A stretch of 64,000 nt of DNA from the NCBI RefSeq assembly GCF_006152115.1, contig NZ_VDFU01000002.1:62001-126000 (forward strand), read 5' to 3'. The translations under genes and the position numbers were made by a program. Below, piece after piece: positions 26,921 to 62,423 of this stretch. The stretch is from Rubellimicrobium rubrum. GTDB taxonomy: Bacteria > Pseudomonadota > Alphaproteobacteria > Rhodobacterales > Rhodobacteraceae. Under the pieces are notes generated by a model that was not told the origin of the DNA, did not search any database, and saw only the letters and a program-made list of their open reading frames with translations. Position 1 is the stretch's first letter, and the number at the start of each line of letters is the position of its first letter.

Positions 26921-29302
26921 TCAGCCGACCCGTTCCTCGTCGGGCAGGATCGAGGCCACCCTTTCCGCAAGCTCCGCCGCCCGGAACGGCTTGACGAGCC
27001 GCGGAAGGTCAGGGGCCAAACCATCGACCTCCGCATAGCCAGACACGATCAGGACCGGCAGCCCTGGGCGCCGCACCTTGACCTCGCGCGCAAGCTGGGC
27101 GCCGGTCATCCCCGGCATGAGGTGGTCGGTGACCAGCAGGTCGAACGGCGCTCCGTCCTCGATCAGTTGCAGGGCCGCCTCGGCTGACCCGGCCTCGATC
27201 ACGTCGAACCCGAAATCGACGAGCATGTCGGCCGTGCTCATGCGGACCAGGTCCTCGTCATCGACGAGAAGCGCGCATCCTCTCGTGCTTGGCCGGGACG
27301 CCACGGCCGAGGCGGTAACCGCTTCGGCGATCGGCTCGCTGCTGACCGGAAGCCAAAGCTCGACCGTCGTGCCCTGCCCCACCGCGCTCCGAATGGTCAG
27401 CCCGCCCCCAAGCTGGGCCGCAAGCCCGTGCACCATGGAGAGCCCCAGCCCCGTCCCCTTTCCGATTCCCTTCGTGGAGAAGAAGGGCTCCACGGCACGT
27501 CCGAGCGTGACCTTGTCCATGCCCGTGCCGGTATCAGCCACGGATAGCCGGATGTAGTGGCCCGCCTTCACGCCCGAGCGGTGCCCCCCGCGCACGCTTT
27601 CCACCGAGGCGGCGACGCTCAGCGTGCCCCCGTCCGGCATGGCGTCGCGGGCGTTCACCGCGAGGTTGAGCAACGCCATCTCGACCTGGTTGGCATCGGC
27701 CCGCGCCGGCGGCAGGTCGGGGACGACATCGAGCCGCATCTGGATCTTGGGTCCGAGCGTCGCGCCGATGAGGTCGGCCATGCCCTGCACGAGCCGCGGC
27801 AGATCGACGGCGGTGGCCTGAAGCGGCTGGCGGCGGGCAAAGGCCAGGAGCCGCTGGACCAGTGTCTTGGCCCGCTCGGCCGATTCGAGCGCGCCCGCCA
27901 TGAGCCGCCGTTCGCGGTCGGTGCCAAGCCCCCGCACCAGCAAACGGTCCAAGGAGCCGATGATCGGAGTGAGCAGGTTGTTGAAGTCATGCGCCACGCC
28001 GCCCGTGAGCTGGCCCATGGCCTCCATCTTCTGGGCTTGGCGAAGCGCCTCCTGCGCGGTCTGCAGGTCGGCCTCGCGCTGGCGCACATCGCTCAGGTCA
28101 CGGCCCACGGCGATGAAGTTGCTGCCGTCAGGCTCGGGCGCGACGGTCCATTCGATGGGGGTCCAGCCACCGTCGCGGCGGGCGATCCGGTTCTCGTAGC
28201 GCGCGGGCTCCCCGGTTTCGGCCATGCGGGTCAGGGCCGCAAGCGTCGCCCCGGCGTCCTCGGGATGCATGAAGCTTGCGTAAGGGCGGGCCAGCAACTC
28301 TGCCTCTGTCCAGCCCAGCACGCGCGTCCAAGCGGGGCTTACGGCCGACATCATGCCATCGAAGGCGGCCCGCGCCAGCATGTCCTCGGACAGGCGCCAG
28401 AGCCGGTTGAGCTGGGTGGTCCGCTCCTCGACACGCAGTTCAAGCGTTTCATTGAGCTTGCGCAGGGCCGCCTCGCTGTCGCGGAGCTGGACCTCGGTGC
28501 TCTTGCGGGCCGAGATGTCCTGGAACAGCACGGCGACCTGACGGCGGCTCGCGGGCTCGACGCGAAAGGCCGACAGCTCCAGATGCCGCCCCGTGGCCAC
28601 CAACTCGCGCTCGAACCGGACGGGCTCACCGGTCCGCAGCACGCGGCCGTAGAGCTCGACCCAGCCTTCGGCCTCGTCCGGCAGTATCTCGCGCACCCGT
28701 TTGCCCACGGCATCGGCCAAGCCCGCATGAACGCTGTAGGCGGGGTTCGCTTCGAGGTGGACGTAGTCGCTGAGCGGCCCATGGGGCCCGTCCAGGAACT
28801 CGATGACGCAGAACCCTTCGTCGATGGAGTCGAACAGCGTCCGGTACCGCTCCTCGCTGTCGCGGAGCGCTTCCAGGCGGCTGCGGGCCTCGTACTGCCG
28901 GCGACGGCCACGGAGGGCGGATTGGGCCAGGCTGACCAGGGTCGTCGGATGGAAGGGCCGCTCCAGGAACGTCACGTTGCCCAGGATGTCCAGAAAACGC
29001 CGGGCGGCCGGATTGCGCTCCACCCCGCCACCCTGGCTGGTGAGAAGCACGAACGGCATGTCGGACCATTCCTGCTGGTCGGCCAGCCAGTCCGACAGGG
29101 CCGACAGGTCAGCGGTGGCAAGCGACTCCTCGGTGACAAGGACGAAGCCCGCCCCCCGGTCGAGTTGCCCTATCAGGTCGGGCAACGACGCGCACGGCTC
29201 GGCCAAGATTCCAGCCTCGCGCAGGAGGGAGGTCGCGATGGCGGCGTCCCGCCCGCGCGGGGTCAGGACGAGGGCCCGCTCCGAGACTGTGATCCGCTTC
29301 AC
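26921..29302 (-). CDS. Hybrid histidine kinase with N-terminal pseudo-receiver, KaiC-linked
   Basis: A 793-residue cytoplasmic kinase. Residues 1-125 have a receiver-like fold ([19 protein letters not shown], then FVLVTEESL and VTFLERPF) but lack the phospho-acceptor Asp, with Glu-Glu at that place. Two PAS domains follow (about 150-275 and 310-420), then HisKA with His438 (GGVAHDFNN), HATPase ([27 protein letters not shown]) and a C-terminal receiver with Asp726 ([10 protein letters not shown]). Its ATG overlaps the stop of the KaiC-like gene by four bases, so the two are co-translated and probably work together. Core and receiver are paralogous to the kinase at 19296-22148. Confidence 0.92.
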
Positions 29303-30789
29303 TTCGGCTCGGCTCGCAGAAGACCGGCACCATCGCCGACCAGCGTCGGCACGCCGCGCAGCACGCCCTGGAACTCGACCAGGGGCTCACCGAGATGGAT
29401 CCCTCGTCCGCCGATGCGGAACTCGCGGATCGTGTCCTCGTGGGCACCCGTGCGCTTCTTGATGACCGAGATGGCGCGCCGCACCCGGCCCAGCGCCTCG
29501 AAGTAGCGCAGCAGGATGACCGTGTCCGCAAGATAGGTGACGTCCACGGGCGCCTTCATCTCTCCGACAAGGCCGTGCTGGGCCACGGTCAGGAACGTCG
29601 TGGCCCCCTGCCGGTTCAGGTATTGCAGAAGCTCGTGCATGTGCAGCACCAGCGCGTGCTCGCCCGGCATCGCGGCCTCATAGCCGTTTAGGCTGTCGAT
29701 CACGATCGTCCGGGCGCGCCCCTCCTCGACGGTGCGGCGGACCCGCTCGGAGAACTCGCCGGGCGTGAGTTCGGCGGCGTCCACCTGCTCGACGGTCAGG
29801 CTTCCCGACTCGACCATCGCCCGAAGGTCGATACCCAGCGCCAGGGCGCGGTTGAACAGCAGGCCAAGCTCCTCGTCGAAGACGAACAGGGCGGCCTTTT
29901 CCCCGCGATGAATGGCACCTTGCAGGAAGGTGAGGGTCAGGAGCGACTTGCCGGTGCCCGAAGGCCCCAGGATGAGGGTGCTGGAGCCCCGCTCCACTCC
30001 GCCCCCAAGCAGCGCATTGAGCTCCGTGGCCTCGGTGGGCAGCACATCGCGCACGAACGAGGTCCTGTGCTCGGCCGAAACGAGCCGGGGGAACACGCGC
30101 ACGCCGCCCTGCTGGATGGCAAGGTCGTGGAAGCCGCCCCGGAACCCGCGGCCGCGATACTTGAGCACCCGCAGCCGCCGCCGCTCGGCCCCGTATTCGG
30201 GGGCCATCTCCTCTAGCCGGATCACGCCATGCGCGACGCTGTGGACCGTGCGGTCGGTCGCTTCGGAGGTCAGGTCGTCAAGCAGCAGGACGGTCGCCTT
30301 CTGCTGGGCGAAGTAATGCTTGAGGCTCAGGATCTGCCGTCGGTAGCGCAGGGAGCTTTGCGCCAGGAGCCGGATCTCGGACAGGCTGTCGAGCACAACG
30401 CGCTGCGGCCGGACCCTCTCGAAGGCATCGAGGATCCGCTTGATCGTCTCGCCCAGTTCGAGATCCGAGGAATAAAGCAGGCTCTGCTGCTGGTCCTCGT
30501 CGAGCAGGTTCTCGGGCGGAACCAGTTCGAAGACGGTCACCCCTTCGAGATCCCAGCCATGCGACAGACCCCCGGTCCGCAACTCCTCCTCGGTTTCCGA
30601 CAGGGTGATGTAGAGCACCCGCTCACCGGCGGCGGCGCCCGTGATCAGGAACTGCATGGCGATCGTCGTCTTGCCGGTTCCGGGACTCCCTTCCAGGAGG
30701 AACACACGCTCCCGTTCGAGGCCTCCGCCCAGCACGTCGTCCAGACCCACGACGCCGATCTTGGCCTCTTTGCTCGCTCGCTCGACCAA
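29299..30789 (-). CDS. KaiC-like double-domain ATPase
   Basis: A 496-residue KaiC-family protein with two RecA-like domains. Walker A1 is GSPGTGKTT (34-42), followed by an acidic SETEEEL; Walker A2 is GPSGTGKSL (about 275-283), followed by FDEELGLLF. The C-terminal IREFRIGGRG region aligns with cyanobacterial KaiC. The two phosphorylation positions (Ser431/Thr432 in Synechococcus) align with Thr418 and Tyr419 (DVTYLADTVILL). Start TTG 30789 is chosen because AAAGGAG lies about 5 bases upstream and the KaiC homology begins a few residues later. No kaiA or kaiB is in the window. It is first in a two-gene operon with the hybrid kinase, so a signalling rather than a complete clock role is likely. 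Confidence 0.93.
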   Translation of the reverse strand: MVERASKEAKIGVVGLDDVLGGGLERERVFLLEGSPGTGKTTIAMQFLITGAAAGERVLYITLSETEEELRTGGLSHGWDLEGVTVFELVPPENLLDEDQQQSLLYSSDLELGETIKRILDAFERVRPQRVVLDSLSEIRLLAQSSLRYRRQILSLKHYFAQQKATVLLLDDLTSEATDRTVHSVAHGVIRLEEMAPEYGAERRRLRVLKYRGRGFRGGFHDLAIQQGGVRVFPRLVSAEHRTSFVRDVLPTEATELNALLGGGVERGSSTLILGPSGTGKSLLTLTFLQGAIHRGEKAALFVFDEELGLLFNRALALGIDLRAMVESGSLTVEQVDAAELTPGEFSERVRRTVEEGRARTIVIDSLNGYEAAMPGEHALVLHMHELLQYLNRQGATTFLTVAQHGLVGEMKAPVDVTYLADTVILLRYFEALGRVRRAISVIKKRTGAHEDTIREFRIGGRGIHLGEPLVEFQGVLRGVPTLVGDGAGLLRAEPK

Positions 30790-31158
30790 GGCCGCTCCTT
30801 TCAGGGAAGATCTGCCTGGATATAGAAGCCGGGTGGGCCATCGAACAGGCCTCCGTCGCGCCAAGGCGGCCCCTTCCTCATCCTCTCTGCAGCATCCCGG
30901 TCCAACAGCCGAAGCGCACGCCGGACCTGGGCGAAGGGTTCGAGCCAGCCGAGCCGTCAGTCACAATGTCACCATAAACGCGACAAACTTCGGCAAATTT
31001 GAGCGATTACTCGCCTCCCGGTAGCAATGAAACCTCGCACCGCGAACGGCCAGAGATCCGCCTCCCCCCGACGTCCGGCCCATCGTCTGGATCGGATGCA
31101 TCGTTTCCACCGGTTCCCGGCCGATGGCCGGCCACCTCAGCCGATGAGGCTCAATCCC
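30790..31158. promoter_or_regulatory. Divergent control region between the KaiC operon and the surface operon
   Basis: A gene-free ~370-base region serves both the minus-strand KaiC operon and the plus-strand surface operon. It contains a locally AT-rich patch (30960-31010) within GC-rich flanks. In it, two 10-base near-repeats abut: CGACAAACTT (30981-30990) and CGGCAAATTT (30991-31000), in phase by about one helical turn. This looks like a tandem regulator site but matches no consensus I know. Confidence 0.45.
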
Positions 31159-31716
31159 ATGACATCCATGCGACTTCTCGCGACCGCCCTTGCCGCCCTG
31201 ATGGCGTTTCCGCTCCATGCCCAGGACGCCGCCCCCGCGCCGGCCGCGCCGCCGGCCGCAACAGAAGGCGTCCAGGCCGGCCTGCGGATCGAAGTCCTCA
31301 AGCCCACCCTGGACGAGTCGGGCCAACCCGTCCTCGACGCCAGCGGCCAGCCCGTCCTCGGGTTCCAGCCCGTGGCCTACGACCTGTCGCTCCTGCCGGG
31401 CGACGAGTTCCGCTACATTGCCGAACTCGTGAACGATGGCCCGGATGCCGAGGCGATCGAGATCGGCCTCGACGTCCCTTCCGCGAGCCGCCTCCTTCCC
31501 GAAACCGTCGTCGCCTCGACCGACGCCGTCTTCGAGCTGGGCTCCACCACCGACGCAACCCTGCGCCTGCCCCTCTTTGTGGAGGTCGATGGCGCCAGCG
31601 TTCCGAACCCCGAATGGGCCGCAACGCCCGAGCGCTTCGACCGGCTTTATGCCCGGATCCAGCGCATCCCGTCCGAGCAGACGGCGACGGTGACCTATCA
31701 CCTCGTCGTCCGCTGA
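31159..31716 (+). CDS. Secreted hypothetical protein, first gene of the surface operon
   Basis: A 185-residue exported protein I cannot assign. A Sec signal peptide is clear (MTSMRLLATALAALMAFPLH, then AQD cleavage), followed by an Ala/Pro linker and a predicted all-beta domain (EFRYIAELVNDGPDAEAIEI, LDVPSASRLLPETV). The NDGPDAEAIEI segment resembles the start of a DUF11-like beta-sandwich, fitting its neighbours. A duplicated motif, SGQPVL, occurs twice around residue 60. ATG 31159 fits the signal peptide and has GAGG about 9 bases upstream; the frame from 31027 adds arginine-rich non-signal sequence. Confidence 0.75.
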   Translation: MTSMRLLATALAALMAFPLHAQDAAPAPAAPPAATEGVQAGLRIEVLKPTLDESGQPVLDASGQPVLGFQPVAYDLSLLPGDEFRYIAELVNDGPDAEAIEIGLDVPSASRLLPETVVASTDAVFELGSTTDATLRLPLFVEVDGASVPNPEWAATPERFDRLYARIQRIPSEQTATVTYHLVVR

Positions 31717-31759
31717 CCTCCGAAGCACCCTCAAAACCTCGAACAAGGGGAAGAACTGA

Positions 31760-32782
31760 ATGCGTTTCTTCAACATGGCCCTTTCCGCTGCAGCGGCTCT
31801 GGCCTTTTCGACCACCCTGGCCTCGGCGCAGGCCGCGCCCGGCACGACGGTCACCAACTCCATCGACCTGAGCTACAGCTCGGGCGGGACCACGATCTCG
31901 ACGACCGGCGCCGCCACGGCGAGCTTCAGGGTGGACCGCAAGATCAACCTGAACGTCACCGGCCTTGACGCCAGCGCGACGGTCTTTGCCGAACAGGGCG
32001 CGAACGACCCGGTGCTGACCTTCCTGGTCGACAACCTGGGCAACGCCACCCAGGGCTTCGACATCAACGTCGCCTCCTCGGGCGCGCTCGGACTGACCTA
32101 CGACCCGGCCGGGACCGGGGCCGAAGGCACCTTCTGGATCACGATCGGCACGACCCAGGCGGTCGGCGCGAACGAGCCCGTCTACAACGCGAACGGCCTC
32201 GTGAACGCGGCCGATCTCGCGCCCAATGGCAAGTTCTACGTTCACGTCCGTGCCAACGTCGCCAACAACGCCGCCAGTGGCCAGTCGCGGAACTTCGACG
32301 TGACGGCGACGGCGCTCGAGAGCGGGACCGCGAACGCGGTGGCTCAGTTGCTCGGCCAAGGCTTGAACGGCGTCGACACCGTCTTTGCCGACCCGGGAAC
32401 GGACGGCAGGCAGACGGCGGCCGAGACCCTGCGGATCAACGCCCCGGCCCTGACCGCCAGCAAGACGGTGACCGTCATCTCGGAAAACCGTGACGGCACG
32501 TTCAACTGCGCGAACGGCCAGCCCGACAGCGGCGCGCAGGCTGCCATCCCGGGCGCCTGCATCGAATACACCATCACGATCAGCAACGCCGCCACCGCGA
32601 CCCTGCCCGCGCGCAACCTGACGATCACCGACGCCCTGCCGGCTGGCGTGGCCTTCGCGAGGCTGGACCGGGGCGGCTTCAGCACCGTCACGCAGTCGGC
32701 TGGAACCGTCACGGGGAACCTGACGAACCTGGCCCCCGGCGGGACGGCGTCCTTCACGATCCGCGCGACCGTCAGCAACTGA
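31760..32782 (+). CDS. Secreted DUF11-type surface protein
   Basis: A 340-residue exported beta-rich protein with signal peptide MRFFNMALSAAAALAFSTTL followed by ASAQA. The N-terminal domain begins TTVTNSIDLSYSSGGTTIST, and a DUF11-like beta-sandwich is at the C-terminus (IEYTITISNAATATLPARNL then TITDALPAGVAF). Its C-terminal ~110 residues match the end of the 859-residue protein in the same operon (KTVTVIS, IPGACIEY, TDALPAG), indicating a duplicated module that includes a conserved Cys pair. It lies 43 bases after the first operon gene with AAGGGGAAG before its ATG. A structural role at the cell surface is an inference. Confidence 0.82.
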   Translation: MRFFNMALSAAAALAFSTTLASAQAAPGTTVTNSIDLSYSSGGTTISTTGAATASFRVDRKINLNVTGLDASATVFAEQGANDPVLTFLVDNLGNATQGFDINVASSGALGLTYDPAGTGAEGTFWITIGTTQAVGANEPVYNANGLVNAADLAPNGKFYVHVRANVANNAASGQSRNFDVTATALESGTANAVAQLLGQGLNGVDTVFADPGTDGRQTAAETLRINAPALTASKTVTVISENRDGTFNCANGQPDSGAQAAIPGACIEYTITISNAATATLPARNLTITDALPAGVAFARLDRGGFSTVTQSAGTVTGNLTNLAPGGTASFTIRATVSN

Positions 32783-32880
32783 TCCGCGCCGAAGCCATGA
32801 CACAGGTCCGAGCGGGTCTGCCGCTCGGACCACCTTGCGGGGCCTTCAGGCCCCGTTCCCTTGCCGCACTCTGGTCCCGA

Positions 32881-35800
32881 ATGCCAATACCCCGCCCGTG
32901 GCGCGCCTTCGCAAAGGCGGCCCTTCTCGCCCTCGTCCTGACGCAGGCCATTCCTGGTCAGGCGGACACTCGGGTCGGTGTGGGCGATGCGGCGTCCGGT
33001 CAGGTCATCACCAACACCGCCTACTGGCGCGCCGATATCGGCGAAGGCTCGACCAACGGCGACGTTTCCGCGACCATCGTGGTACAGGAGGCGCCCGCAC
33101 CGCCCACGCTGCGGGTCTATGAGGCCGCACAAGGCCGGCCTACCTCCAGCAGCTTCCACTTCCGCCGCACCGACTACCTCAAGGGTGGGCGCTTCCACCG
33201 GTCGGCCATGCCGGCCGATGCGTCGGGCCTTGCGGACCGCACCGGTCCGGTGAACCTGTCCGGCCCGCTCGACGTGATCCGGACCCAGCGCATCCGCTAC
33301 GGCGCGCCGCTGTTCTACGTCCTCACCGCCGAAGCCCTGAACCGCAGCCCCAGTTCGGTCGAGACGGCCATCCTGACGGTCACCGACCGCCTGACGGGCG
33401 ACAGCGAGACCCTCCGCCTCTACGAGACCGCCCCGGATTCGGGCCAGTTCGGCGGCTGGACCGACACGCGCCGCACCTCTCCCACGCATGGCGATGGGCG
33501 ACTCGCCACCGGCGGGCATTCGACCATCGACGGCGTCTGGACGGACGCGGCCCCGTCATCCACACGGCTTGCGACGCAGGTGCTCGTGGGTCCGATGGAC
33601 CCGCACGGCCTGGTCTATGACAGCTCCACCGGCGCGCCGGTGAACGGGGCGCGCGTCACCTTGATCAACATGCGGACCGGAAAACCCGCCGAGGTCTTTG
33701 GCGAGGATCTCCGTTCATCCTATCCGGCCACGATCATCACGGGCGGCACCGTGTCGGACGGGGCAGGTCGCGATTACGACCTGAAGCCCGGAGAGTACCG
33801 CTTCCCCTTCGTGCTGCCCGGCACCTACCGCATCATCGTTTCGGCTCCGGAAGGCTATGTGGCCCCGTCGACCCGGTCGGACGACCAGATCAACGCCGAG
33901 GCGCCCGAAGGCATGGACGTCACGCTGGGCTCCCGCGGGGAGCCGTTCACGATCAGGGCGGGCCGGCCGGTGGCGCTGGGCGTGCCCGTGGACCGCATGG
34001 GCGAAGGCTCCGTGGATCGCGACGGATCGATCTCCCTGGCTCAGGCCGGGGACTTCGTGACCTACACGGTCACGATCGAACCCCCGCCGGTCGCCGCCAT
34101 CACCATCTCGGACACTCTCCTGCCCGAGATCAGGATGGTTCCCGGCACCCTGCGCCTCGACGGCAAGGCCGTGACCCCGCGCGAGGTCCGGGACGGCTTC
34201 GTGATCGAGGAGGTGCCCGTCAACGGCCGGGACGTGGTCATGACCTATCTGGCCCAAGTGTCGGTCGGCGCGGCGGAAGGGGCCAGCCTTCCCACGACGA
34301 CCACCGTGACCGAGGCGCTGACCGGCTCGGCCCGGATGTCCGACGATCACCTGATCGACATCGAGGCCCCCTTCGGCACCGACGAGACGGTCATCCTCGG
34401 GCAGGTGATCGCCGGACCCTGCGGTGCGCCCACGGACGGCCGCGACCTGTCCGGCCTTCGCATCCTGCTCGAGTCGGGCGACATGGCCGTGACCGACTCT
34501 CAGGGGCGCTTCCATTTTCAGGGAATCGCGCCGCGTCCGCATGTGGTCCAGCTCGACCAGACCACCCTGCCCCGCCATGCCACCCCGATCCTCTGCCGCC
34601 GCGACACCCGCAACGCGGGGAGCCCGATCTCCTCCTTCGTGGACCTGCGGCCCGGCATGATGGCCCGTGTCGAGTTCCACGTCGACTTCGACGAGGCGGC
34701 GGAAACGGCCGAGTCCGCGACGGAGGCAGCCCTGGCCGAGATCCCCGAACCCGCCGACCCTGCCCAGATCTATGACCGGGACTGGCTCGCGCGGCAGGGC
34801 CTAGATCCCGAGCCCGCCCTTCTCACCCCGGCCGAAGGCTGGACGCCCGGCTCGGATGCCATCGATGCCGTGATCCTGAAGCCCGCCGGGGCCGTGACCG
34901 AGCTGCGCCTCAACGGCGAGCCCGTGCCCGAGATGCAACTCGACCAGCCCATTCTGGACCCGATCTCGGGCGCGAGCCTTGAGCGGTGGCACGCCCTGCG
35001 CCTCCGCGAGAGCCGCAATGTTTTGGACGTGGTGATGAAGGATGCGGACGGCCACGAGATCCTGCGGGAACAGCGCATCCTGTACTACGAAACGATTCCG
35101 TTCCGGGCCGAGCTGGTCACGGCCGGTTCCGTGCTCGAAAGCGACGGGCGCACGACGCCGGTCCTGCAGCTGCGCGTCCTGGGACGATCGGGCGGGCCGG
35201 TCCGGCCCGGAACGCGGGTGCAGTTCTCGGTGGCGGAACCCCATGGCTTCGAAAACCCCGTCGAGCGCGATTCCCAGCCCGGCTCCGCGCGCGGTCCCCA
35301 GCCATCGGCCACCGCCGTGGTGGCCGAGGACGGGCTCGTGCGCCTGCGCCTGGCCCCTGTCCGCGAAACCGGCACCGCCCATGTGACCGTCATGACGCCC
35401 GACCGCGCGCCGGGACAGGAGATCGTCGTGGACGTGCCGATCTCGGCCGCCGAGCGGCCCTGGGTCCTCGTGGGTCTGGCCGAAGGCACCCTTGCCGAAC
35501 GCACCATCCGATCGCATCTGCGGCGCTCGGGCGACATCGGCAACGACCTCGCCGGGCGCGTGTCGCTGTTCGCCGAAGGCGTGGTGGCGGGCAAGTGGCT
35601 CCTGACCCTGCGCCTCGACACTGCCCGCGACGGGACCGGGCCGTTCTCGGCCATCGACCCCGAGCGCGACTATGTCGTCTATGGCGATGCCTCCTATCAG
35701 GACGACGCCGCGCCATCGCGCTTTCCCCTGTATCTTCGGCTGCGGAGCGAGGAGGCCGAAACCCTCGTCGGCGACTTCGCGGCCGAGATCGACACCCGCC

Positions 35801-37872
35801 TTGTCGATCTGTCGCGGCAGGTCACCGGCCTGCGTGTCACGCGCGAGACCCCCACCTACCGCGTCATGGCCTTTGCGGCCCGGACCACCCAGCGCTACGT
35901 GGAGGATCGCATCGCTCTCGACGGCACGTCGGGGCCGTATGAGCTCAGCCGCACCGACATCGTGCCGCGGTCCGAGACGGTCACCCTTCTTGAGGTCGAC
36001 GGCGACGACATCTCGCGCGTGGTGTCCGAGGAAACACTCGTGCCCGGCCAGGACTACGTCCTGAGCGCCACCACCGGCCGGCTGTTCCTGCGCCGCCCGG
36101 TCCCGGCCTTCACCCCCGACATGAACCGCTTCGTCCTGAAGGTCGGATACGAGACCGACGAGGAGATCCAGTCCGGCGTTCTGGCCGGCATCCGGGCCGA
36201 ACGGCAACTGAGCGACCGCGTCCGAGTGGGCGCGACGTTGGTCCATGCCGGCAACGCCGATGGCGGAATGGTGGACGTCACCCTGCTGGGGGCGGACATT
36301 GCCGTCATGCTCAGCGACAGCCTCGCGGTGGGCGCCGAGGTGCTTCAGGCCCTCCGGAACGGCCCCGAGGGCGAGATGCGCGGCAAGGCGGACGAGCTTC
36401 ATGCCGAGTTCGACGACGGCACGAGCAGCGCCCGCCTTTACCTGCGTAGCGAGGATGGCGACGTCAGCCTCGCCTCCAGCATGGACGAGCGCCGGATCGA
36501 CAGCCTGGGCGCCGAGGGCGAGGTGCGCCTGCTGGATCGCGGCAGCGAGGAGAACCCGGACGACGGCCTCTGGCTTTCGGGCGAGGCCCATGCCGAGCGG
36601 AACCGACTGGAGGACGATCGGACGGCCAGCGGCGATCTCGAGATCCTGCGCCGGACCGGGGGCAACGAAAGCGCGCTGGGTCTGTCCTTCCACAACACCG
36701 AAACCGGCGATGCAGCCAGCGGCACGCTTCATGCCACCGCCCGCCTTGCCTGGAGCCCCGACGAGGGCCGCGTCGCCTATGGCCTGGAACTGCGCGAGCC
36801 CCTGTCCGAGAAGGGGGACGCGGACGCCGAAAGCGAGATGCTCCTCAGCGCCGCCATCGACCTGTCCGACCGCTTCGCCCTGACGGCGACCTGGGACGGC
36901 GCGAGCCCCCTGGACACTGACGGGAGCGACTCGGGCGTCGTGTCGGTCGGGGCCGTCTGGGCCTGGGGCGAGGACGGGGAGGTCCGCGCGGGTTTGGCCA
37001 GCGCCTATGGCGACGGGACGTCCGGGCAGGCGCTGTTCCTGGGCCTCGACCGGTCCTGGAAGATGCGGCCTGGCCTGGAGCTCAGCTTCGGCCTCGACTC
37101 TCAGAACGACCTCGGGGCTTCGGAGATTCCGCTCGGGCTCGGGTCCGACAATCCCTGGATCGAGTCCTCCTTCACCGCGACGCGAACGGGCCTGCGCTAC
37201 ACGGCGGACACCTGGTCGCTGGGCATCGAGGTGGAGGGACGCACCGCCCCCGAAGGGGATCGCGCAAACCTGCGCCTGTCGGGTGACGGAGAACTGGGCG
37301 ACGGCTGGACCTACGGCGCCGAAATCCAGCACGGCGTGTCGGACGAGAATGGAAAGGACCGCCGCGACACCGAAGCCAAGATCAGTTTCGCGCATCGCCT
37401 GGGCGGATATGCCCCGATCACTCTGTTCGAGTTGGAGGCGGAAGGCTCTCTCGACGATGGGGTGGACACGCGGCGCCTTCAGGCGACCGCCCTGCATTCC
37501 CGTTATCTGAGCGAGCGTGGCGAGTTGGTCCTGCGCGCCTCCCTCAAGGGGCTGGCAACCGAGGCGGATGGCGCCCGCGCCACCGATGCGCTGACCCTTC
37601 TGGGGGCCGAGTACCGCCACCAACTGAACGAGACCTGGAGCCTCGGCGGCCACGGATCGCTGATGCGCTCGGCCCGCACGGGCAACACCCGGTCGAGCTA
37701 TGGCGTGTCCGTGGGCATGACACCGTTCGAGAACGGGTATCTGGAGCTGGGCTACAACGTCGAAGGCTTCGAGGACGAAGCCTTCTCGGAGCACGGCACC
37801 ACGAACAAGGGTTTCTTCCTGGAGTACCGCATGAAATTCGACCAGGAGAGCTTCCGGAGGGCATTCCGTTGA
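32881..37872 (+). CDS. Giant outer-membrane surface protein with C-terminal beta-barrel
   Basis: A 1,663-residue exported protein with signal peptide MPIPRPWRAFAKAALLALVL, cleaved near PGQAD. In order: an N-terminal beta domain like that of the preceding protein (SGQVITNTAYWR), a carboxypeptidase-regulatory/Cna-B-like fold at about 243 (GLVYDSSTGAPVNGARVTL), a DUF11-like sandwich at about 410, and a second Cna-B-like domain at about 507 (LRILLESGDMAVTDSQGRFH). An invasin-like Ig region spans about 740-850. The last ~580 residues alternate short beta strands and turns (RVRVGATLVHAG, LELGYNVEGF, GFFLEYRMKF), a pattern typical of a large outer-membrane barrel. No autotransporter or TonB-box signature is seen. 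ATG 32797 is an alternative start. Its stop overlaps the next gene's start. Confidence 0.85.
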   Translation: MPIPRPWRAFAKAALLALVLTQAIPGQADTRVGVGDAASGQVITNTAYWRADIGEGSTNGDVSATIVVQEAPAPPTLRVYEAAQGRPTSSSFHFRRTDYLKGGRFHRSAMPADASGLADRTGPVNLSGPLDVIRTQRIRYGAPLFYVLTAEALNRSPSSVETAILTVTDRLTGDSETLRLYETAPDSGQFGGWTDTRRTSPTHGDGRLATGGHSTIDGVWTDAAPSSTRLATQVLVGPMDPHGLVYDSSTGAPVNGARVTLINMRTGKPAEVFGEDLRSSYPATIITGGTVSDGAGRDYDLKPGEYRFPFVLPGTYRIIVSAPEGYVAPSTRSDDQINAEAPEGMDVTLGSRGEPFTIRAGRPVALGVPVDRMGEGSVDRDGSISLAQAGDFVTYTVTIEPPPVAAITISDTLLPEIRMVPGTLRLDGKAVTPREVRDGFVIEEVPVNGRDVVMTYLAQVSVGAAEGASLPTTTTVTEALTGSARMSDDHLIDIEAPFGTDETVILGQVIAGPCGAPTDGRDLSGLRILLESGDMAVTDSQGRFHFQGIAPRPHVVQLDQTTLPRHATPILCRRDTRNAGSPISSFVDLRPGMMARVEFHVDFDEAAETAESATEAALAEIPEPADPAQIYDRDWLARQGLDPEPALLTPAEGWTPGSDAIDAVILKPAGAVTELRLNGEPVPEMQLDQPILDPISGASLERWHALRLRESRNVLDVVMKDADGHEILREQRILYYETIPFRAELVTAGSVLESDGRTTPVLQLRVLGRSGGPVRPGTRVQFSVAEPHGFENPVERDSQPGSARGPQPSATAVVAEDGLVRLRLAPVRETGTAHVTVMTPDRAPGQEIVVDVPISAAERPWVLVGLAEGTLAERTIRSHLRRSGDIGNDLAGRVSLFAEGVVAGKWLLTLRLDTARDGTGPFSAIDPERDYVVYGDASYQDDAAPSRFPLYLRLRSEEAETLVGDFAAEIDTRLVDLSRQVTGLRVTRETPTYRVMAFAARTTQRYVEDRIALDGTSGPYELSRTDIVPRSETVTLLEVDGDDISRVVSEETLVPGQDYVLSATTGRLFLRRPVPAFTPDMNRFVLKVGYETDEEIQSGVLAGIRAERQLSDRVRVGATLVHAGNADGGMVDVTLLGADIAVMLSDSLAVGAEVLQALRNGPEGEMRGKADELHAEFDDGTSSARLYLRSEDGDVSLASSMDERRIDSLGAEGEVRLLDRGSEENPDDGLWLSGEAHAERNRLEDDRTASGDLEILRRTGGNESALGLSFHNTETGDAASGTLHATARLAWSPDEGRVAYGLELREPLSEKGDADAESEMLLSAAIDLSDRFALTATWDGASPLDTDGSDSGVVSVGAVWAWGEDGEVRAGLASAYGDGTSGQALFLGLDRSWKMRPGLELSFGLDSQNDLGASEIPLGLGSDNPWIESSFTATRTGLRYTADTWSLGIEVEGRTAPEGDRANLRLSGDGELGDGWTYGAEIQHGVSDENGKDRRDTEAKISFAHRLGGYAPITLFELEAEGSLDDGVDTRRLQATALHSRYLSERGELVLRASLKGLATEADGARATDALTLLGAEYRHQLNETWSLGGHGSLMRSARTGNTRSSYGVSVGMTPFENGYLELGYNVEGFEDEAFSEHGTTNKGFFLEYRMKFDQESFRRAFR

Positions 37873-40448
37873 TCCCGATGCCCTTCCTCCCTCCTCCCGT
37901 CTGCCCGATCCCCCTCCGCCCTGCTCTAGTCCGCCCGGCCCTTATTCGCCTCGTCGGAGCAGCCTTCCTGGCCTTCGCACCGGCCCTTGCCCTGGCACAG
38001 GCATCCACCGAAATGACCCAGGGCGGGGGCTCGGAGACATCTATCACGGCCCCCACTCTGGAACCCGTGACTGTCACCTTGCAGAACAACAGCAACAACC
38101 CGACCGGGTCCACATTCGTCCCAATCTCGGCGGAGGCGCCCACGGCATCCCTGGAAGTGGGGAGGCTTTACTACTCATCCACTACCAACTTCACGACTCA
38201 TGGCGTTTACGTCGGCGATGCCCAGAACCAGTTTGCCCGGCTTGCGCCCCTAGGCGTGCGTGGGACACCTGCCAGCGGCAACTTCACCTCGCTGCCAGGC
38301 ATTACGGCTGGGCAGGGAATCTCGGTGGACGCCAATTATGCCTGGTTCGTAGAAGCCCGCACTCGGGGACTTGCCGCTGCAGACGTGAGGGATACAGGCA
38401 GTTATCTGGTAGCCGACCTCGTGATCAGGCTACAGGTCCCAATGACCAATGTAGTGCTGCACTTTGCCGGGCTCGGGGGCATCGCCGGCAAGCGGTTCTC
38501 CTCGGAGTTCGTATTCGACGCTGCGCAGTCGGCCGGGGCACAAAGCCTCAGCCGGTTATCCGGTACTTCGAACTTCGCCGTCAGTGGAACGGTGATCAGC
38601 AACTCGGCCACATCCCTGGGGGCCGATTGTGGAAACGGGGGCGCCTGCGGGTCTGTGGCAATCGTTGCCGCGAGCGGTCAAGCGATCACCAAGATCGTGC
38701 TGCACCATTATCTGCGCAGCCGCGATTCAGAAGCCTGGGGTAATACCGGCGTTGATGCTTTCACCCTGAGCCTGTCCGGCGAGGTCGCGGACATGGTGCC
38801 CACCCTGACCCTCCCCGACCTCCTTTGGGGAGAGACTTACCGCGGTCTGACGGCCACCTGCACGAACGCCGGCCCCAACACCGTCCGCAACCCGACCTGT
38901 GCCGTCACCATGTCGGGGGCCGGCACGATGACGACCCCAGTGTGCGGTGCCGCCCCCGGGAGCGCCTTGGCCGTCGACGCCGCGCTGACCTGCACCTTCG
39001 ATTACACCGCGCCAGCCTACAACCCGAACGGCCCCGCCTCCGCTCCCGTTACCTTCACGACGACCACAGGCGGCTTGAACGACAGGAACGGCGGCACGAC
39101 GACACTCGGCAACAACCAGCGCGCTCCGGCCTCGACAGTGACCGGAAGCCCCTATGCGCCGTCGCAGCCCGGCCAAACCTGTTCCGCCACGGCGAACGTG
39201 CTCAGCTTCGCCTTCCCCGGCGCGGGCGGAACCGAGACCGGATCGGGGTATGACCTGATCTCCCACTCGCCGTTCTCCTTTGACGTTAACGGCAAACCCG
39301 TGCTCATGACCGCCAGCGGCACCCCCACGACGCAGACCATCACCATGTCTCCCGGCGCCCTGTTCAAACCGAACGAGGAGGTGACGCTGGGGCTTCCCGC
39401 ATTGGGGGCGTCCAGCCGAGGCGAGATCGTCGTCGTCACCTCCCGCATCGTTGGCCGGGCGGGATCGTCCATGACGGTCACGGTGTCGGATGCCGGGGAC
39501 GAGGACCACGATGTCTTCACCATCGAGAACGCGGCGGGCGGCATGATCGCCCGGGCTCCAACATCCGGCTCGAACAACGCAGACGGGGATCTCGTGCTCT
39601 CCTTCACCATGCCGTCCGAAGGATACGTGTTCCTGCGCCAGTACGTCACCGACTACGCCGCGCTCTACGGCGCGCGTCGCGACGGCGGCTGCCTGCGCAC
39701 CGACCTCCGGACGGTCAAGGGCCGGACCTCGGCCGCCAGCATCGAGGTGGGCCAGACGGCCACCTTCACGATCACGGTCACCAACACCGGTCCGTCGGCG
39801 GCCAGCAACGTGCAACTGACGGATCTGATGCCCCCGACCCTGACGGGCGTGACCGTTACGGCTCCGGCCGAAACCACCTACAACACCGCGACCGGGCTCT
39901 GGACCGTCCCACGCCTCGCCAACGGGGCTGCGGCCACTCTCACGCTTACGGGTACGGCCACCATGGCGGCCTCCAATACCACGGTCACCAACACGACGAC
40001 GGCCGCAATCGGGGATCAGCCGGATCCATCAACGGCCGGCGATGTTCTCTCGGCCTCGGTCCTCGTACTTCAGGCCCCGATGGTGCGGGCGACCAAGACG
40101 GTGACCCTCCTCTCGAACCAGTCAGCCAACTGCGCCACCCGCCCCTCGACCCCCGACACCGGCGTTCAGGCCTTCATCCCGGGGTCCTGTGTCGAGTACC
40201 TGATTGGCCTGACCAATCCGACAGGGTCCGTCGCGCGCGACATCCTCATGACTGACGTGCTTGCGGCTGGGCTGACCTTCATGGGTGCTGCGGCCACGGG
40301 CTTCGACACCAGCGATCCGTCCTATGCGCTGCTTGTGCCGTCGTCCGGGACCGCCTGCACGGCAACGACTTGCACGATCCGCCTCGACAAGGCCCGCCTG
40401 GCGGCCAACTCCACCGGCCAGGTCCGGATCCGGGCGGTGCTGCGATGA
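37869..40448 (+). CDS. Large secreted DUF11-repeat surface protein
   Basis: An 859-residue exported beta-rich protein with a proline-rich basic leader and a hydrophobic signal core (IRLVGAAFLAFAPALALAQA). Residues about 30-300 form a unique N-terminal region. Ig-like segments and DUF11 beta-sandwiches follow (FTITVTNTGPSAASNVQLTD at about 635), ending in a C-terminal module paralogous to that of the 340-residue protein (TKTVTLLS, IPGSCVEY, MTDVLAAG). TTG 37869 has CGGAGGG about 8 bases upstream and overlaps the preceding stop in TTGA, so coupled translation is likely; ATG 37878 is the alternative. The first ~250 codons use more A/T than the rest. Confidence 0.83.
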   Translation: MIPMPFLPPPVCPIPLRPALVRPALIRLVGAAFLAFAPALALAQASTEMTQGGGSETSITAPTLEPVTVTLQNNSNNPTGSTFVPISAEAPTASLEVGRLYYSSTTNFTTHGVYVGDAQNQFARLAPLGVRGTPASGNFTSLPGITAGQGISVDANYAWFVEARTRGLAAADVRDTGSYLVADLVIRLQVPMTNVVLHFAGLGGIAGKRFSSEFVFDAAQSAGAQSLSRLSGTSNFAVSGTVISNSATSLGADCGNGGACGSVAIVAASGQAITKIVLHHYLRSRDSEAWGNTGVDAFTLSLSGEVADMVPTLTLPDLLWGETYRGLTATCTNAGPNTVRNPTCAVTMSGAGTMTTPVCGAAPGSALAVDAALTCTFDYTAPAYNPNGPASAPVTFTTTTGGLNDRNGGTTTLGNNQRAPASTVTGSPYAPSQPGQTCSATANVLSFAFPGAGGTETGSGYDLISHSPFSFDVNGKPVLMTASGTPTTQTITMSPGALFKPNEEVTLGLPALGASSRGEIVVVTSRIVGRAGSSMTVTVSDAGDEDHDVFTIENAAGGMIARAPTSGSNNADGDLVLSFTMPSEGYVFLRQYVTDYAALYGARRDGGCLRTDLRTVKGRTSAASIEVGQTATFTITVTNTGPSAASNVQLTDLMPPTLTGVTVTAPAETTYNTATGLWTVPRLANGAAATLTLTGTATMAASNTTVTNTTTAAIGDQPDPSTAGDVLSASVLVLQAPMVRATKTVTLLSNQSANCATRPSTPDTGVQAFIPGSCVEYLIGLTNPTGSVARDILMTDVLAAGLTFMGAAATGFDTSDPSYALLVPSSGTACTATTCTIRLDKARLAANSTGQVRIRAVLR

Positions 40449-41029
40449 GACCGTGGGTCGCAGCCCTGACCCTGTCCCTGACCCTCTGCGGCTGGTCCGG
40501 GACCGCCCGTTCCGATACCGGGGAGGTCGATGCAGGGTTTGGCGCCAATGATGTCGACTTTCTCAACCTGATGGGAAACGTCGAGGCGCCGGATGGGTTC
40601 GGGGACGTCTTCAACGGCGTTCCCCTGCTGCCGCCCGAGCGGCTGGAGGAGATGACGATCGGCGAGGTGCTGTCCTACCAACGCCAAGTTCGGGCCATGG
40701 GCACGATCTCGAGCGCGGTGGGACGCTACCAGTTCATCCACGACACGCTGCGCCGCCTGGTGGATGAGCTGGGGCTGACCCCCGACCTGGTGTTCGACGA
40801 CGAGGTCCAGACCTTCCTCGCGCGGGCCCTGATGTCCGAATGCGGCTTCTACGATCCCGACCGCGACAGCCGTTTGCTGGCCGACTGCCTGGCCGGTGTA
40901 TGGGCCTCGTTGCCGCTGGTGACCGGCCTGCACCGTGGCGAATCGGCCTATGCCGAGGATGGGGTCAACAGCGCTCTGGTCAGCCCCGAAGAGGTCCTGG
41001 CGGTCCTTGACGCCCGCTATCTCTGGTAA
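40445..41029 (+). CDS. Exported lysozyme-like (murein hydrolase) protein
   Basis: A 194-residue protein with signal peptide MRPWVAALTLSLTLCGWSGT, cleaved near ARSD. The central segment MTIGEVLSYQRQVR and then SSAVGRYQFIHDTLRRLVDE resembles the lysozyme-like fold of phage-type muramidases and GH104-like enzymes (A.GRYQF motif). The Glu in TIGEVLSYQ is a candidate catalytic acid. Four cysteines could form disulfides in the periplasm. Its ATG overlaps the previous stop (ATGA), so it belongs to the surface operon and may open peptidoglycan for assembly of the large outer-membrane protein. Activity is inferred from weak similarity only. Confidence 0.65.
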   Translation: MRPWVAALTLSLTLCGWSGTARSDTGEVDAGFGANDVDFLNLMGNVEAPDGFGDVFNGVPLLPPERLEEMTIGEVLSYQRQVRAMGTISSAVGRYQFIHDTLRRLVDELGLTPDLVFDDEVQTFLARALMSECGFYDPDRDSRLLADCLAGVWASLPLVTGLHRGESAYAEDGVNSALVSPEEVLAVLDARYLW

Positions 41030-41079: not shown

Positions 41080-42753
41080 TCAGAGCAGTATGTCTCCGGC
41101 CCCCAGGGCCTCGATACCCAGAATGCGGATCTCGAAGTCGGCCCGGCCATCGCCAGAGACGTCGCCCCGCAGGGTCACCCCGTCCGATCCGGCTGCCCAC
41201 CAGACCGAGTAGGCGGCGGGCCCATCGTCCGCGAATGCGAGGTTTCCATTCCAGTGGGCTGCCGATCCACCAGCACCGATCCTTTGCAGATCCAGATCGT
41301 CCACGCCGGGAACGAAGCCCCGGATCACGTCCGCTTCTCGTCCGGCCAGAGTTTCGGCCGCGCTGGTAAAGATGAACACGTCCCTGTCCCGATCGTTGCC
41401 GCCGTCGAGAATGTCGCGCCCCAGACCGCCACTGAGCCGATCCTGCCCCGACCCGCCCAGGAGCCGGTCCCGGCCCGGTCCCCCGATCAGGTCATCGTCG
41501 CCGGCGAGACCAGCCAGGACGTTAGAGCCCTTGTTCCCGACGATGCGATTGGCAGCGTCGTTGCCCGTACCCCACGCAGCCGAGGCTCCGATGAGCCGCA
41601 ACGCCTCGAACTCGGGCGGGAGACGGGCCGAACCGCGGGATACGATCGTGTCGAACCCTTGGCCGGCTCGTTCGACCAACCGATCCGAGGAGTCCTGGAC
41701 ATAGGTGTCGTCGCCGGCTCCGCCCATGAGGAGGTCGCGCCCCCGACCCCCGCAGAGAGAGTCGTCGCCCGAGCCCCCATCGATCGTGTCGGCCCCATCG
41801 CGGCCGCGGATCACGTCGGCTCCGCCTCCACCCCGAAGCCTGTTCGCCGCGGCGTTTCCCCCGATCCAGTCGGCTCCGCTGCCGGCGCTGTAATCCTCGA
41901 TCACGGTGCCCTGCGCGATGCCCAAGCAGTCCTTGTGGCCATAAACGGTCGAGAACATGCCTTTCCGCAGGTCCACGCGCTGAGAGGCCGGGTCATCGCT
42001 GAAGTCGAGGCGGTCGTGGCCGCCCTCGTCATAGACGGTCATGACATTCCGAGCCAGCTTTGCCGGGGAACTGCTTCCAGCTTGGAACATATCGCCCAGA
42101 TAACCGACCAGATTGGTCCCGACGCCGTAAACCGTGTCTCCTGCAGTCGCACCTCCTTTCGGCGCGCCGTAAATCCGCTGAATGGCCGCGATATCCGCCA
42201 TCATGGGCGTGATGACGAAGGAGGGAAATGCTGCTGACGAAACATTCGGATTTTCGTCCTGATCGAAATAGGACATGACGCTTTGCTGCCAGGAATCATT
42301 ACGGAACAGCGCTTCCTTGAAATTGTCGCTGCCCCGGTATTGAGCCGGATGCCCCAATCCAAGGGCATGGCCGATTTCGTGAAGGTAAACCTGGAACGCA
42401 TAGGTTCCCACCTTCGTGCCCGAGAAATCCAGCCATGAACGACCGATCGCCACGGTGGCCCAGTTCATGTGCCCATTGGCATCATGGTCGCCGGACGTCG
42501 TCGCCGAAAGGCCGCTGTCCGTGAATCGGATATGCCCACCGTCGTCGACCTCCTCGAACTCAAGGTCGGCAACACTTTCCCAGGCCGAAAGAGCGGCCCG
42601 CGCCAGAGCCGCCCCTTCGCGATCCAGCCCTGTCAGGTCGACTTCGATGATGTCAGTCGTAGTCCAGTCACGCGCGATCTGCCCTCGATCCTGCCAGAAA
42701 CCTTCGACGAGATATTTAATCAGTTCGGAATTGGATCCGTTTTGCGCCGACAT
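41080..42753 (-). CDS. RTX metalloprotease of the serralysin (M10B) type, second copy
   Basis: A 557-residue secreted zinc protease with HEIGHALGLGHP at residues 125-136 and Met-turn SVMSYF at 158-163. Two blocks of glycine-rich calcium-binding repeats (about 295-345 and 435-465: GGRGRDLLMGGAGDDTY and similar) follow, with a tail GAGDILL suited to type I secretion. It differs strongly from the copy at 11483-12985 in sequence and repeat spacing, so it is not a recent duplicate. ATG 42753 has AAGGA 9 bases upstream; ATG 42840 would add 29 residues without support. It converges on the surface operon. No T1SS genes are in the window. The protease-coding half is more AT-rich than the repeat half. 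Confidence 0.92.
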   Translation of the reverse strand: MSAQNGSNSELIKYLVEGFWQDRGQIARDWTTTDIIEVDLTGLDREGAALARAALSAWESVADLEFEEVDDGGHIRFTDSGLSATTSGDHDANGHMNWATVAIGRSWLDFSGTKVGTYAFQVYLHEIGHALGLGHPAQYRGSDNFKEALFRNDSWQQSVMSYFDQDENPNVSSAAFPSFVITPMMADIAAIQRIYGAPKGGATAGDTVYGVGTNLVGYLGDMFQAGSSSPAKLARNVMTVYDEGGHDRLDFSDDPASQRVDLRKGMFSTVYGHKDCLGIAQGTVIEDYSAGSGADWIGGNAAANRLRGGGGADVIRGRDGADTIDGGSGDDSLCGGRGRDLLMGGAGDDTYVQDSSDRLVERAGQGFDTIVSRGSARLPPEFEALRLIGASAAWGTGNDAANRIVGNKGSNVLAGLAGDDDLIGGPGRDRLLGGSGQDRLSGGLGRDILDGGNDRDRDVFIFTSAAETLAGREADVIRGFVPGVDDLDLQRIGAGGSAAHWNGNLAFADDGPAAYSVWWAAGSDGVTLRGDVSGDGRADFEIRILGIEALGAGDILL

Positions 42754-43726
42754 GATCGGACATCCTTGCACATCGATTACCCCGATGTTTCGTTGACCGA
42801 TTAAGCGCGCCATTCTGACGTCGGAAGCCGACGAACTCACCCCATGGAAACCCTAAGGAGAGGTGTGTTAATGCGTCCTTGCTTTTTCCAAGCCGCATGA
42901 AGCGATAGTTAACGTTGCAAAATGGATTAAATGAAGCTTCGAGATTGAGGCGCGGACGCCCCAGGGCAACCTGCACTGCGGCGCTCCGTTTCGCCGGATG
43001 CCGAAGGCCTTCCGTCATTGATCGGCGCTGTCGCAGCACGAAGGGGAGTCGCCAGTGTGACAGCTCCGATGTCCGCGATCGCGCTGACATGGCTCCGCGC
43101 TGGAAGAAGTCCCAGCCTGTGCCGTCCCAAGCACGGCGCTGAAGAGGGCCCGTGGCGAAGTGTTCCATGGGGGATCGCTGTTGTCCGTGGTCTTGGACGT
43201 CTTGCATCCCACGCCCATGCCTGCCCCGTGGTCCTCGCGAAGTTGCGGACTGACGGGACCGGGTCGGGCCCCTGTCATCAGCCGGTCACGCGATCAGATG
43301 ATCCGATCCAGCCCTCGGCAGGGCGACCAGCTGGGATGCTCCCTTGAGCTCAGCAGCGTGCACTGACCCGCTTGGGTCGTCAGGGCGCGCCCTTGCCGCG
43401 TTCGGCCGCTGTCCAAGGGGAGCCAGTCGCCAACAGGGTCGCACAGCGCGAGGCCGCTCGTTAGCTGAACAGGAGTTCGCGCACAGTGCCGGGTCCGAGT
43501 TGGGCTGAGCTTGGGACAGCTTCGATGCCAGACCCGCCGATGACAGGGCGGTCAGTGGGCTGGGGGCAAGGCCAGAGATCTGTTTCCAGGCCTGGGGTTT
43601 GGTCCTGCCGTCAGGGTACGGATGTCGGCGCAAACCGCGATGGAAAGCGCCGAACCCTGCCGTGGAAGCCCCCAGTCCACCGTACCCGCCCGCGCATGAC
43701 GGCTTTTGAACAAAGGAAATAGGTAA
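42754..43726. other. Long gene-free region upstream of the second RTX protease
   Basis: Nearly 1 kb without a supportable gene. Bases 42835-42950 are AT-rich (TTAACG and GGATTAAATG patches) and probably hold the protease promoter. The remainder is GC-rich with only short random-looking frames. No transposase remnant, tRNA or repeat array could be recognised. Confidence 0.5.
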
Positions 43727-61559: not shown

Positions 61560-62423
61560 TTACCCTTTCACGGCGCCCGCGGTCATACCCGCGACGATCT
61601 GGCGATTGAAGAAGATGAACACGATCAGCGGCGGGATCGTCACCAGCAGCACGTTCATGAACAGCAGGTTCATCTGGGAGGAGAACTGGCTCTGAAAGTT
61701 GTAGAGCGTGAGCTGCACCGTCACGTTCTCCCGACCCGGCAGGTAGTAGAGCGGGTTGGTGAAGTCGTTGAAGATCGCGATGCTCTGCACGACGATCAGC
61801 GTCACCGTCACCGGCCGCAGCAAGGGCAGGATCACCCGGAAGAAGACCTGCAGGGGCTTGGCCCCGTCGATGATCGCAGCCTCGTCCAGCTCCTTAGGGA
61901 TGGTGGCGATGAAGGCGCGGTAGAGCAGGACGGAGAAGGACAGCCCATAGGCCACCTGGATCAGGATCATCCCGTGGATGGTCTTGAACAGCCCCAGGCC
62001 CTGCAGCACCCAGATCGTCGGCACGACGGCGGGCGGGATCATCAGCCCCGCCAGGACCAGCGCCATGACAATGCCATTGAGCCGCGACCGTCGCCGCTGG
62101 AGCACGTAGCCCACCATCGCAGCCAGCACGATCAGCAGCGCCACCGCCCCCACGGTGATGACCGTGGAGTTGAAATAGGCCAGGAGCAGCATGTAGTTGC
62201 GCTCGGAGATCACGTCCCGGAAGTTCTGCCAGGCCTGCCATTCGCTGGGCCAGGCAAAGTTCAGGCGGCTGGCGTCCCGCCGGTTCTTCACGGCCTGGAG
62301 CGCGATGAACAGGAACGGCACCACGAAGACAACAAAGGCCACGGCCATGGCCAGCGCGCCCGTCACGATGGGGCGCCACTTGGTCGGGCGTCGGCGCGGG
62401 CGGCGGGCAGACATCGCGGTCAC
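61560..62423 (-). CDS. Carbohydrate ABC transporter permease (MalG type)
   Basis: A 287-residue inner-membrane permease with six predicted helices and the EAA loop KELDEAAIIDGAKPLQVFFR then ILPLLRP. The GTG at 62423 is chosen because GGGAGG lies 7 bases upstream and the codon overlaps the previous stop (GTGA). ATG 62414, three codons later, is the alternative. It pairs with the MalF-type permease. Confidence 0.93.
   Translation of the reverse strand: MTAMSARRPRRRPTKWRPIVTGALAMAVAFVVFVVPFLFIALQAVKNRRDASRLNFAWPSEWQAWQNFRDVISERNYMLLLAYFNSTVITVGAVALLIVLAAMVGYVLQRRRSRLNGIVMALVLAGLMIPPAVVPTIWVLQGLGLFKTIHGMILIQVAYGLSFSVLLYRAFIATIPKELDEAAIIDGAKPLQVFFRVILPLLRPVTVTLIVVQSIAIFNDFTNPLYYLPGRENVTVQLTLYNFQSQFSSQMNLLFMNVLLVTIPPLIVFIFFNRQIVAGMTAGAVKG

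Follow-up and report, generated by a model that had tools for sequence, protein, structure and literature searches.

A candidate outer-membrane export or display operon with a predicted giant beta-barrel and DUF11-type partner proteins in Rubellimicrobium rubrum

Among the described outer-membrane systems that resemble the locus discussed here, the ushers of chaperone-usher pili have barrels of 24 strands, the TpsB proteins of two-partner secretion (type Vb) have 16 strands and POTRA domains, and classical autotransporters (type Va) carry their barrel at the C-terminal end. SprA, of the type IX secretion system (T9SS), has 36 strands and is described as the largest barrel in the passages of two papers that deal with it (PMC10994853, PMC7463736), and the T9SS C-terminal domain (CTD) is, in the relevant part of its source, a conserved C-terminal beta-sandwich (PMC4804311). 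The cargo of type XI secretion (T11SS; Slam, DUF560) shares a CTD that is given as an eight-stranded barrel in the pertinent section of a T11SS survey, which there names DUF11 once, as a domain occurring with DUF1194 (PMC12282271). Here we describe a five-gene operon in a 64,000-nucleotide stretch of Rubellimicrobium rubrum DNA (contig NZ_VDFU01000002.1, forward-strand positions 62,001 to 126,000; "the window", to which coordinates given without a locus name refer) that most likely encodes a hitherto undescribed system for export or display at the outer membrane, built around a predicted giant barrel. Its function is suggested by sequence and structure prediction, and as far as comparison goes the results support the interpretation of the original prediction, which was made from the letters of the window and a list of its open reading frames (ORFs). 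Aimed full-text searches of an open-access library, which covers few subscription papers and preprints, yielded no prior description of such a system. The Acinetobacter fil operon, considered as a candidate match, was not supported, no link to the barrel being seen; FilF is, in the portions of the sources that mention it, a 641-residue protein (PMC4751259) and a lipoprotein dependent on the type II secretion system (PMC12802150). Brucella and Sinorhizobium papers proved to be false matches on DUF11xx names.

The operon consists of five ORFs, P1 to P5, all on one strand (+) and spanning 31159-41029. These genes and their domains are as follows.

31159-31716 (+): P1, 185 aa, small exported Ig/DUF11-like protein (ORF; profile and direct matches to small pre-barrel genes)
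31760-32782 (+): P2, 340 aa, exported two-domain Ig/DUF11 protein, presumed partner or subunit (Pfam DUF11, E 4e-8; AlphaFold2)
32441-32779 (+): C-terminal Ig-like domain (CTD) of P2, residues 228-340 (CTD profile)
32881-37872 (+): P3, 1663 aa (1691 aa from ATG 32797), giant barrel protein with an N-terminal Ig/Cna-B-like half (ORF; barrel profile)
33607-33927 (+): CarboxypepD_reg domain of P3, residues 271-377 of the 1691-aa ORF (PF13620, E 7e-12)
35545-37839 (+): predicted barrel of P3, about 38 strands, residues 917-1681 of the 1691-aa ORF (AlphaFold2)
37878-40448 (+): P4, 856 aa, exported, unmatched N-terminal head and DUF11 domains, 3' gene of the operon (DUF11, E 1e-23)
40080-40445 (+): C-terminal Ig-like domain of P4, of the P2 CTD family, start approximate (CTD profile, E 1.5e-14)
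40445-41029 (+): P5, 194 aa, exported lysozyme-like protein (phrog_90 endolysin, E 7.4e-14; ATGA overlap with P4)

A Sec-type signal peptide was judged by eye to be present at the start of each of the five products, in agreement with the claim that all are exported. The intergenic gaps are 43 bases between P1 and P2, 14 (or 98) between P2 and P3, whose frame is open already from the ATG at 32797, and 5 between P3 and P4. The last three genes had been thought to be coupled by overlapping stop and start codons; this is true of P4 and P5, which share an ATGA at 40445-40448, the sole certain overlap in the operon, and not of P3 and P4, where the P4 ATG lies past the P3 stop, unless P4 starts at a TTG at 37869. 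A 30-base tandem repeat of 2.1 copies (37874-37937) spans the P4 start. Sigma-70 and terminator scans gave scores not above those of shuffled sequences.

The largest product, P3, was modelled with AlphaFold2 over residues 855-1691 of the longer ORF from a 37-row alignment (pLDDT 83.4, pTM 0.73). The resulting 837-residue model has 32 long strands within model residues 257-827 and about six more at 63-186, and the C-terminal half of P3 is predicted to be a giant outer-membrane barrel of about 38 strands; structure prediction had been named as the test that could refute the barrel of the original prediction, and in this model the barrel is there. Pfam finds CarboxypepD_reg (Cna-B-like) domains in P3, as expected from the Ig/Cna-B-like domains that had been claimed for it, and a weak match to Porin_4. 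The 50 Foldseek rows listed for the model are mostly outer-membrane barrels, with VDAC and apolipoprotein B also present, at TMq values of 0.08-0.25, and the top row is trimeric SlpA (E 1.6e-7, TMq 0.23), which we take to be a Deinococcus protein. In VIA-align comparisons FimD (9fxb_D; Z 15.4, 320 of 837 residues), SprA (6h3i_A; Z 15.2, rmsd 11.1, 634 of 837 residues, model 31-827) and several porins are tied at the top, SprA having the widest coverage among the matches listed; such a tie supports "giant outer-membrane barrel" and not membership of either family, and a family missing from the VIA-align rows was never counted as evidence. A profile of the barrel family has local matches among PDB sequences to solved porins, OmpT (E 1.4e-6) and TodX, and neither it nor P3 matches SlpA there. 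No descriptive Pfam or NCBIfam family was found for the barrel region in 20 barrel proteins, which matched only Ig-type, generic porin and, in one member, OmpA-type models. Homology to SprA, considered on the basis of a motif seen by eye (GPY...SE...GxDY), was rejected, since the barrel profile finds no SprA among PDB sequences at E<=1 and SprA_N (PF14349) has no match in the 20 barrel proteins at E<=0.01; the parallel is a structural one. SprA_N was likewise absent from the results for the window's own genome, a search that carries no weight because the control genomes gave no match either.

The SlpA match, and the recurrence of peptidoglycan-related parts near or in such barrels (P5-like lysozymes, an OmpA protein after an Acinetobacter barrel, the OmpA matches of one member of the set of 20), would be expected if P3 exported nothing and worked as a very large structural porin, holding the DUF11 proteins in place and tying the outer membrane to the wall in the manner of Deinococcus SlpA, the partners leaving the cell by another route. 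We regard such a surface-layer or tether role as unlikely; the resemblance to SlpA is of a generic kind, a porin would have no need of so large a barrel, and long and short barrels go with different partner CTDs (below), which fits a recognition step.

The original prediction matched the operon to no named secretion type, and indeed the defining domains of the named types were not detected in the families scanned. The closest functional parallel is most likely the T9SS translocon, by analogy and without detectable homology: SprA and the predicted P3 barrel fall in the same size class, and the partners of the P3 family end in an Ig-like CTD. Unlike the T9SS, the P3 system is a single compact operon found outside the Bacteroidota, and P2 and P4 have no match to a T9SS sorting domain in NCBIfam, which at E<=1 gives just DUF11, FxLYD and fimbrial Ig models for them. 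Chaperone-usher pili (FimD, PapC) are similar in that a large outer-membrane barrel stands beside exported Ig-fold subunits and FimD is a top structural row; they differ in that P2 is predicted to have complete Ig domains, and no usher or PapD-type chaperone family was found in P1 or P3 (Pfam, E<=1) or in the 20 barrel proteins (E<=0.01). Two-partner secretion is resembled by a short class of these barrels (below), in which a giant exported partner is encoded beside the barrel gene with a stop/start overlap in several loci; POTRA, the ShlB/FhaC barrel and the TPS domain have no match in P2, P3, P4 or the 20 barrel proteins. Type XI systems also co-encode an outer-membrane protein with cargo having a common CTD, and DUF560 has no match in the window proteins or the 20 barrel proteins. 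The Deinococcus SlpA/S-layer complex is comparable in its large barrel.

The order of parts in P3, N-terminal Ig region followed by C-terminal barrel, is that of classical autotransporters, and several long barrels carry a P2-like module at their N-terminus; P3 might push its own Ig stalk through its barrel, with P2 and P4 as mere decoration. This seems very improbable to us, as the autotransporter beta-domain has no match in the window proteins or in the 20 barrel proteins, and short-class barrels dispense with most of the N-terminal region and lie beside a separate giant DUF11 gene.

The gene arrangement is not confined to the window. A synteny map was made of 40 loci, 31 of them with long barrels (1600 aa or more; one is broken); of the close-relative loci L108-L116, L110 and L114 are apparently duplicate records of L030 and L031. 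The usual order is [DUF11]-small Ig-DUF11-(DUF11)-barrel-(variable 3' gene), with a pair of P2-like genes in some loci. An Ig/DUF11 partner directly adjoins the barrel gene in all 46 loci with the needed DNA, before it in 45 and after it in one (G066); the 46 are 39 of the 40 mapped loci (L094 is excluded, its contig starting inside the barrel gene), six further loci and G066. A small Ig gene is found near the barrel gene in 29 of the 31 long-barrel loci, the two exceptions lying at contig edges; the small gene of L083, masked in the map by a longer overlapping ORF, was found by profile search. The genes stay together in other genomes; their separate occurrence had been named as a result that would refute the original prediction. 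All five positions are filled in L112 and L113, where the P5 homologue is divergent and stands before P1, and where the 3' gene matches the window's P4 through the C-terminal profile only. A Synechococcus NIES-970 plasmid (Cyanobacteriota) has the order DUF11-small (E 8.6e-31)-DUF11-barrel (E 1.5e-127)-DUF11, a Thermus brockianus plasmid has DUF11-barrel (E 2e-16)-DUF11, and Thalassolituus has small-DUF11-barrel. Because the same gene set recurs in such distant genomes, the arrangement of the operon is not due to chance.

Among Pseudomonadota, the barrel profile finds matches in 77 of 396 genomes at E<=1e-3 and in 50 of 396 at E<=1e-15; the latter were counted as true barrels and the 27 weaker genomes as barrel-negative, a threshold that was set after the list had been seen. 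DUF11 is present in 49 of the 50 barrel-bearing genomes against 36 of the 346 others (Fisher p 4e-38), counts that are inflated by genome relatedness and by DUF11 inside some barrel ORFs. DUF11 and barrel are jointly present or absent within some genera (G066 vs G068, G074 vs G078), and in the window's own genome DUF11 was found in this operon only. That the five exported genes have no joint function and are neighbours by chance would agree with the presence of P5 in some lineages only; we consider it extremely improbable in view of this co-occurrence and of the recurrence of the set across phyla.

Outside Pseudomonadota the barrel was found at one locus each in Cyanobacteriota, Deinococcota and Nitrospirota. 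The single P3 sequence has matches in 18 of 292 genomes of its order, and in 3 of 61 genomes in a search of relatives (its own genome included); the close relatives of its locus include members of Roseinatronobacter, Natronohydrobacter, Roseicyclus, Loktanella and Tranquillimonas, and used as a single query it has no match in the phage collection or in the genome-contig collection. Barrel loci also occur on plasmids. The barrel gene of a Novosphingobium THN1 plasmid (L005 7608-12774) is split into three ORFs.

The partners of the barrel share a second feature besides their position. P2 is above the Pfam cut-off for DUF11 (33.9 bits, cut-off 24.6), as is P4 (83.8 bits), so that the two DUF11 proteins of the original prediction stand. 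A profile of the long-class CTD matches the gene that directly precedes the barrel in each of 30 Pseudomonadota long-barrel loci and ends 0-5 residues from the stop codon; 16 of these genes were in the profile alignment, and the remaining 14 match as well (the broken L005 upstream gene of Novosphingobium and L094, whose contig starts in the barrel gene, are excluded from the count). The same profile matches 13 of 14 exported-looking 3' genes, none of which was in the profile alignment, ending 0-1 residues from the stop in ten and 13-83 residues earlier in L081, L083 and L092; the 3' gene of L091 has no match to it. These 14 were picked for looking exported, and lysozyme, OmpA, cNMP-binding, methyltransferase and other 3' neighbours, as well as the Synechococcus one, were left out. 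The match in P4 ends one residue before its stop. In several lineages the long barrels carry an N-terminal module of two domains that is itself homologous to the P2 family (probability 98.7, E 1.8e-16, 237 columns), which indicates that barrel and partner-like unit can be joined in one protein; to the eye this module is reduced in the window's P3. P1, labelled a "small beta protein" in the original prediction, is indeed small and exported, and the label is better given as divergent member of the conserved small Ig family: its residues 78-185 match, weakly, a profile of 29 small pre-barrel proteins, and direct matches to the same-position genes of L108, L112, L113 and L115 (E 8e-10 to 3e-13) link it to that family by sequence. 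A search with the single P1 sequence, plasmids included, found no relative.

The AlphaFold2 model of P2 has a hairpin followed by two Ig-like domains (pLDDT 93, pTM 0.82). If P3 were an usher-like pore, the operon could build a pilus by strand or domain exchange, in which P1 would serve as chaperone or cap, P2 would be the subunit that repeats along the fibre and P4 would be the adhesin at its tip. VIA-align has FimD ushers in its top rows, P2 is homologous to the N-terminal part of many long barrels, two P2-like genes occur in some loci, and Ig-type subunits with variable tip heads are what such a pilus would have. We think a pilus quite improbable, however, as P1 and P3 have no usher or PapD-type chaperone match and the P2 model consists of complete Ig domains whose structural matches are generic, pilins and pilus chaperones making up a few rows of a long and mixed list. 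Polymerisation of P2 was not supported by its model.

A second class of barrels is shorter, with open frames of about 1130-1420 aa (that of L046 is split into two ORFs), and the DUF11 protein that accompanies it can reach about 4000 aa, its gene overlapping the barrel start in several loci. All 13 short-class partners end in a different common domain, about 130 residues long (for example L043 6074-6553); the profile was trained on six of them, and the seven held out all match it at E<=1.4e-38. Ten such domains, aligned over 160 residues, are 43-61% identical to the first and have 32 invariant columns. G066 has no DUF11 gene before its barrel, and the 3520-aa DUF11 frame that begins 3 bases after it carries the short-class domain (E 9.8e-41). 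The two classes separate fully at E<=10: the short-class profile matches 0 of 16 long-class tails, and the long-class profile matches 16 of 16 long and 0 of 13 short tails. The short-class domain has no similarity to the P2 family and no convincing match in Pfam; an OmpA-like fold gained no clear support from profile comparison (probability 2.3, E 0.021). This change of the partner's C-terminal end with barrel class is the strongest hint that barrel and partner recognise one another, and it may also reflect common descent alone.

The 3' genes differ greatly at their N-terminal ends. The head of P4 has no Pfam match, and elsewhere the heads include an ice-binding domain (PF11999, E 2e-60, in L092), a P-domain (L081) and Gly-rich and PKD regions (L030, L112, L113); varied heads of this kind are how interchangeable adhesins would be expected to look. 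In L092 the gene for the ice-binding protein (606-1817, -), which has a C-terminal DUF11-like domain, overlaps the stop of the giant-barrel gene. P5 has no Pfam match, and its relation to phage endolysins (phrog_90) and a Glu that is conserved in 7 of 7 aligned sequences, which by analogy we take to be a catalytic-type residue, support its identification as a lysozyme-like endolysin relative, as had been predicted. A wall hydrolase is not supported as a constant component of the system: the Ig/DUF11 partners recur with the barrel, and P5-like genes were found in only 6 of the 40 mapped loci and 4 of the 9 close-relative loci (L108-L116), several of which end at contig edges.

Taken together, we favour, at a probability of roughly 0.58, a dedicated outer-membrane export or display system in which the barrel exports or anchors its partners through their C-terminal domain and the heads are displayed. 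Sec would send P1, P2 and P4 into the periplasm, where the N-terminal Ig/Cna-B-like part of P3 should also lie, because both ends of an even-stranded barrel are periplasmic. P3, or its N-terminal half, would recognise the C-terminal Ig-like domain of P1, P2 and P4, which would then pass through, or be held by, the barrel, and the variable N-terminal heads would come to lie on the outer face of the cell, forming an adhesin or a short fibre. P5 might locally open or bind peptidoglycan and so make room for the machine. The transport direction, CTD recognition, surface location, fibre formation and role of P5 in this scheme are our suggestions. A wider proposal is tentative, with the odds slightly against it: that the family is an unnamed outer-membrane secretion system of Pseudomonadota, Cyanobacteriota, Deinococcota and Nitrospirota, with barrels among the largest made of a single chain, class-specific CTDs that sort cargo, and interchangeable displayed heads.

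Several observations weigh against export or display as favoured here. The conservation of the C-terminal domain could reflect packing in a surface lattice, not export, and the long-class CTD profile has no match in the upstream partner of the Thermus or Synechococcus loci. The AlphaFold2 barrel model spans half of P3, and with the low Foldseek TM-scores the fold match means just "large barrel"; the P2 model likewise shows no sign of strand exchange or polymerisation. No energy source, motor or shuttle was recognised in the operon, where no search was aimed at the T9SS motor or shuttle families (GldLM, PorV). The inflation of the DUF11 counts and the patchy occurrence of P5-like genes belong here too, as does the absence of a match to the single P3 sequence in all seven same-genus genomes (0/7), which together with the plasmid occurrence makes P3 seem accessory.

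The operon is flanked by genes on the opposite strand. Upstream and divergent from it are a KaiC-type double ATPase and a PAS histidine kinase-receiver hybrid (26921-30864, -), and downstream is a serralysin-like M10 metalloprotease with RTX repeats (41080-42840, -). Response-regulator-like genes, recognised by annotation or by eye, are present near several other barrel operons (L007 3055-3675, L033 1158-1778, L005 17422-18144) and may hint at common regulation.

If the proposed function is correct, giant SprA-like export barrels whose partners have a C-terminal sorting domain would exist outside the Bacteroidota, encoded by an operon in which no T9SS part can be recognised. The widespread exported domain DUF11, so far without a known function, would gain a concrete role in Gram-negative bacteria, and the locus would be a compact display operon that could be tested by swaps of its head domains. 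Since Pfam and NCBIfam yielded no family for the barrel, many proteins now named "DUF11 domain-containing" or "hypothetical" may, we would guess, belong to one system.

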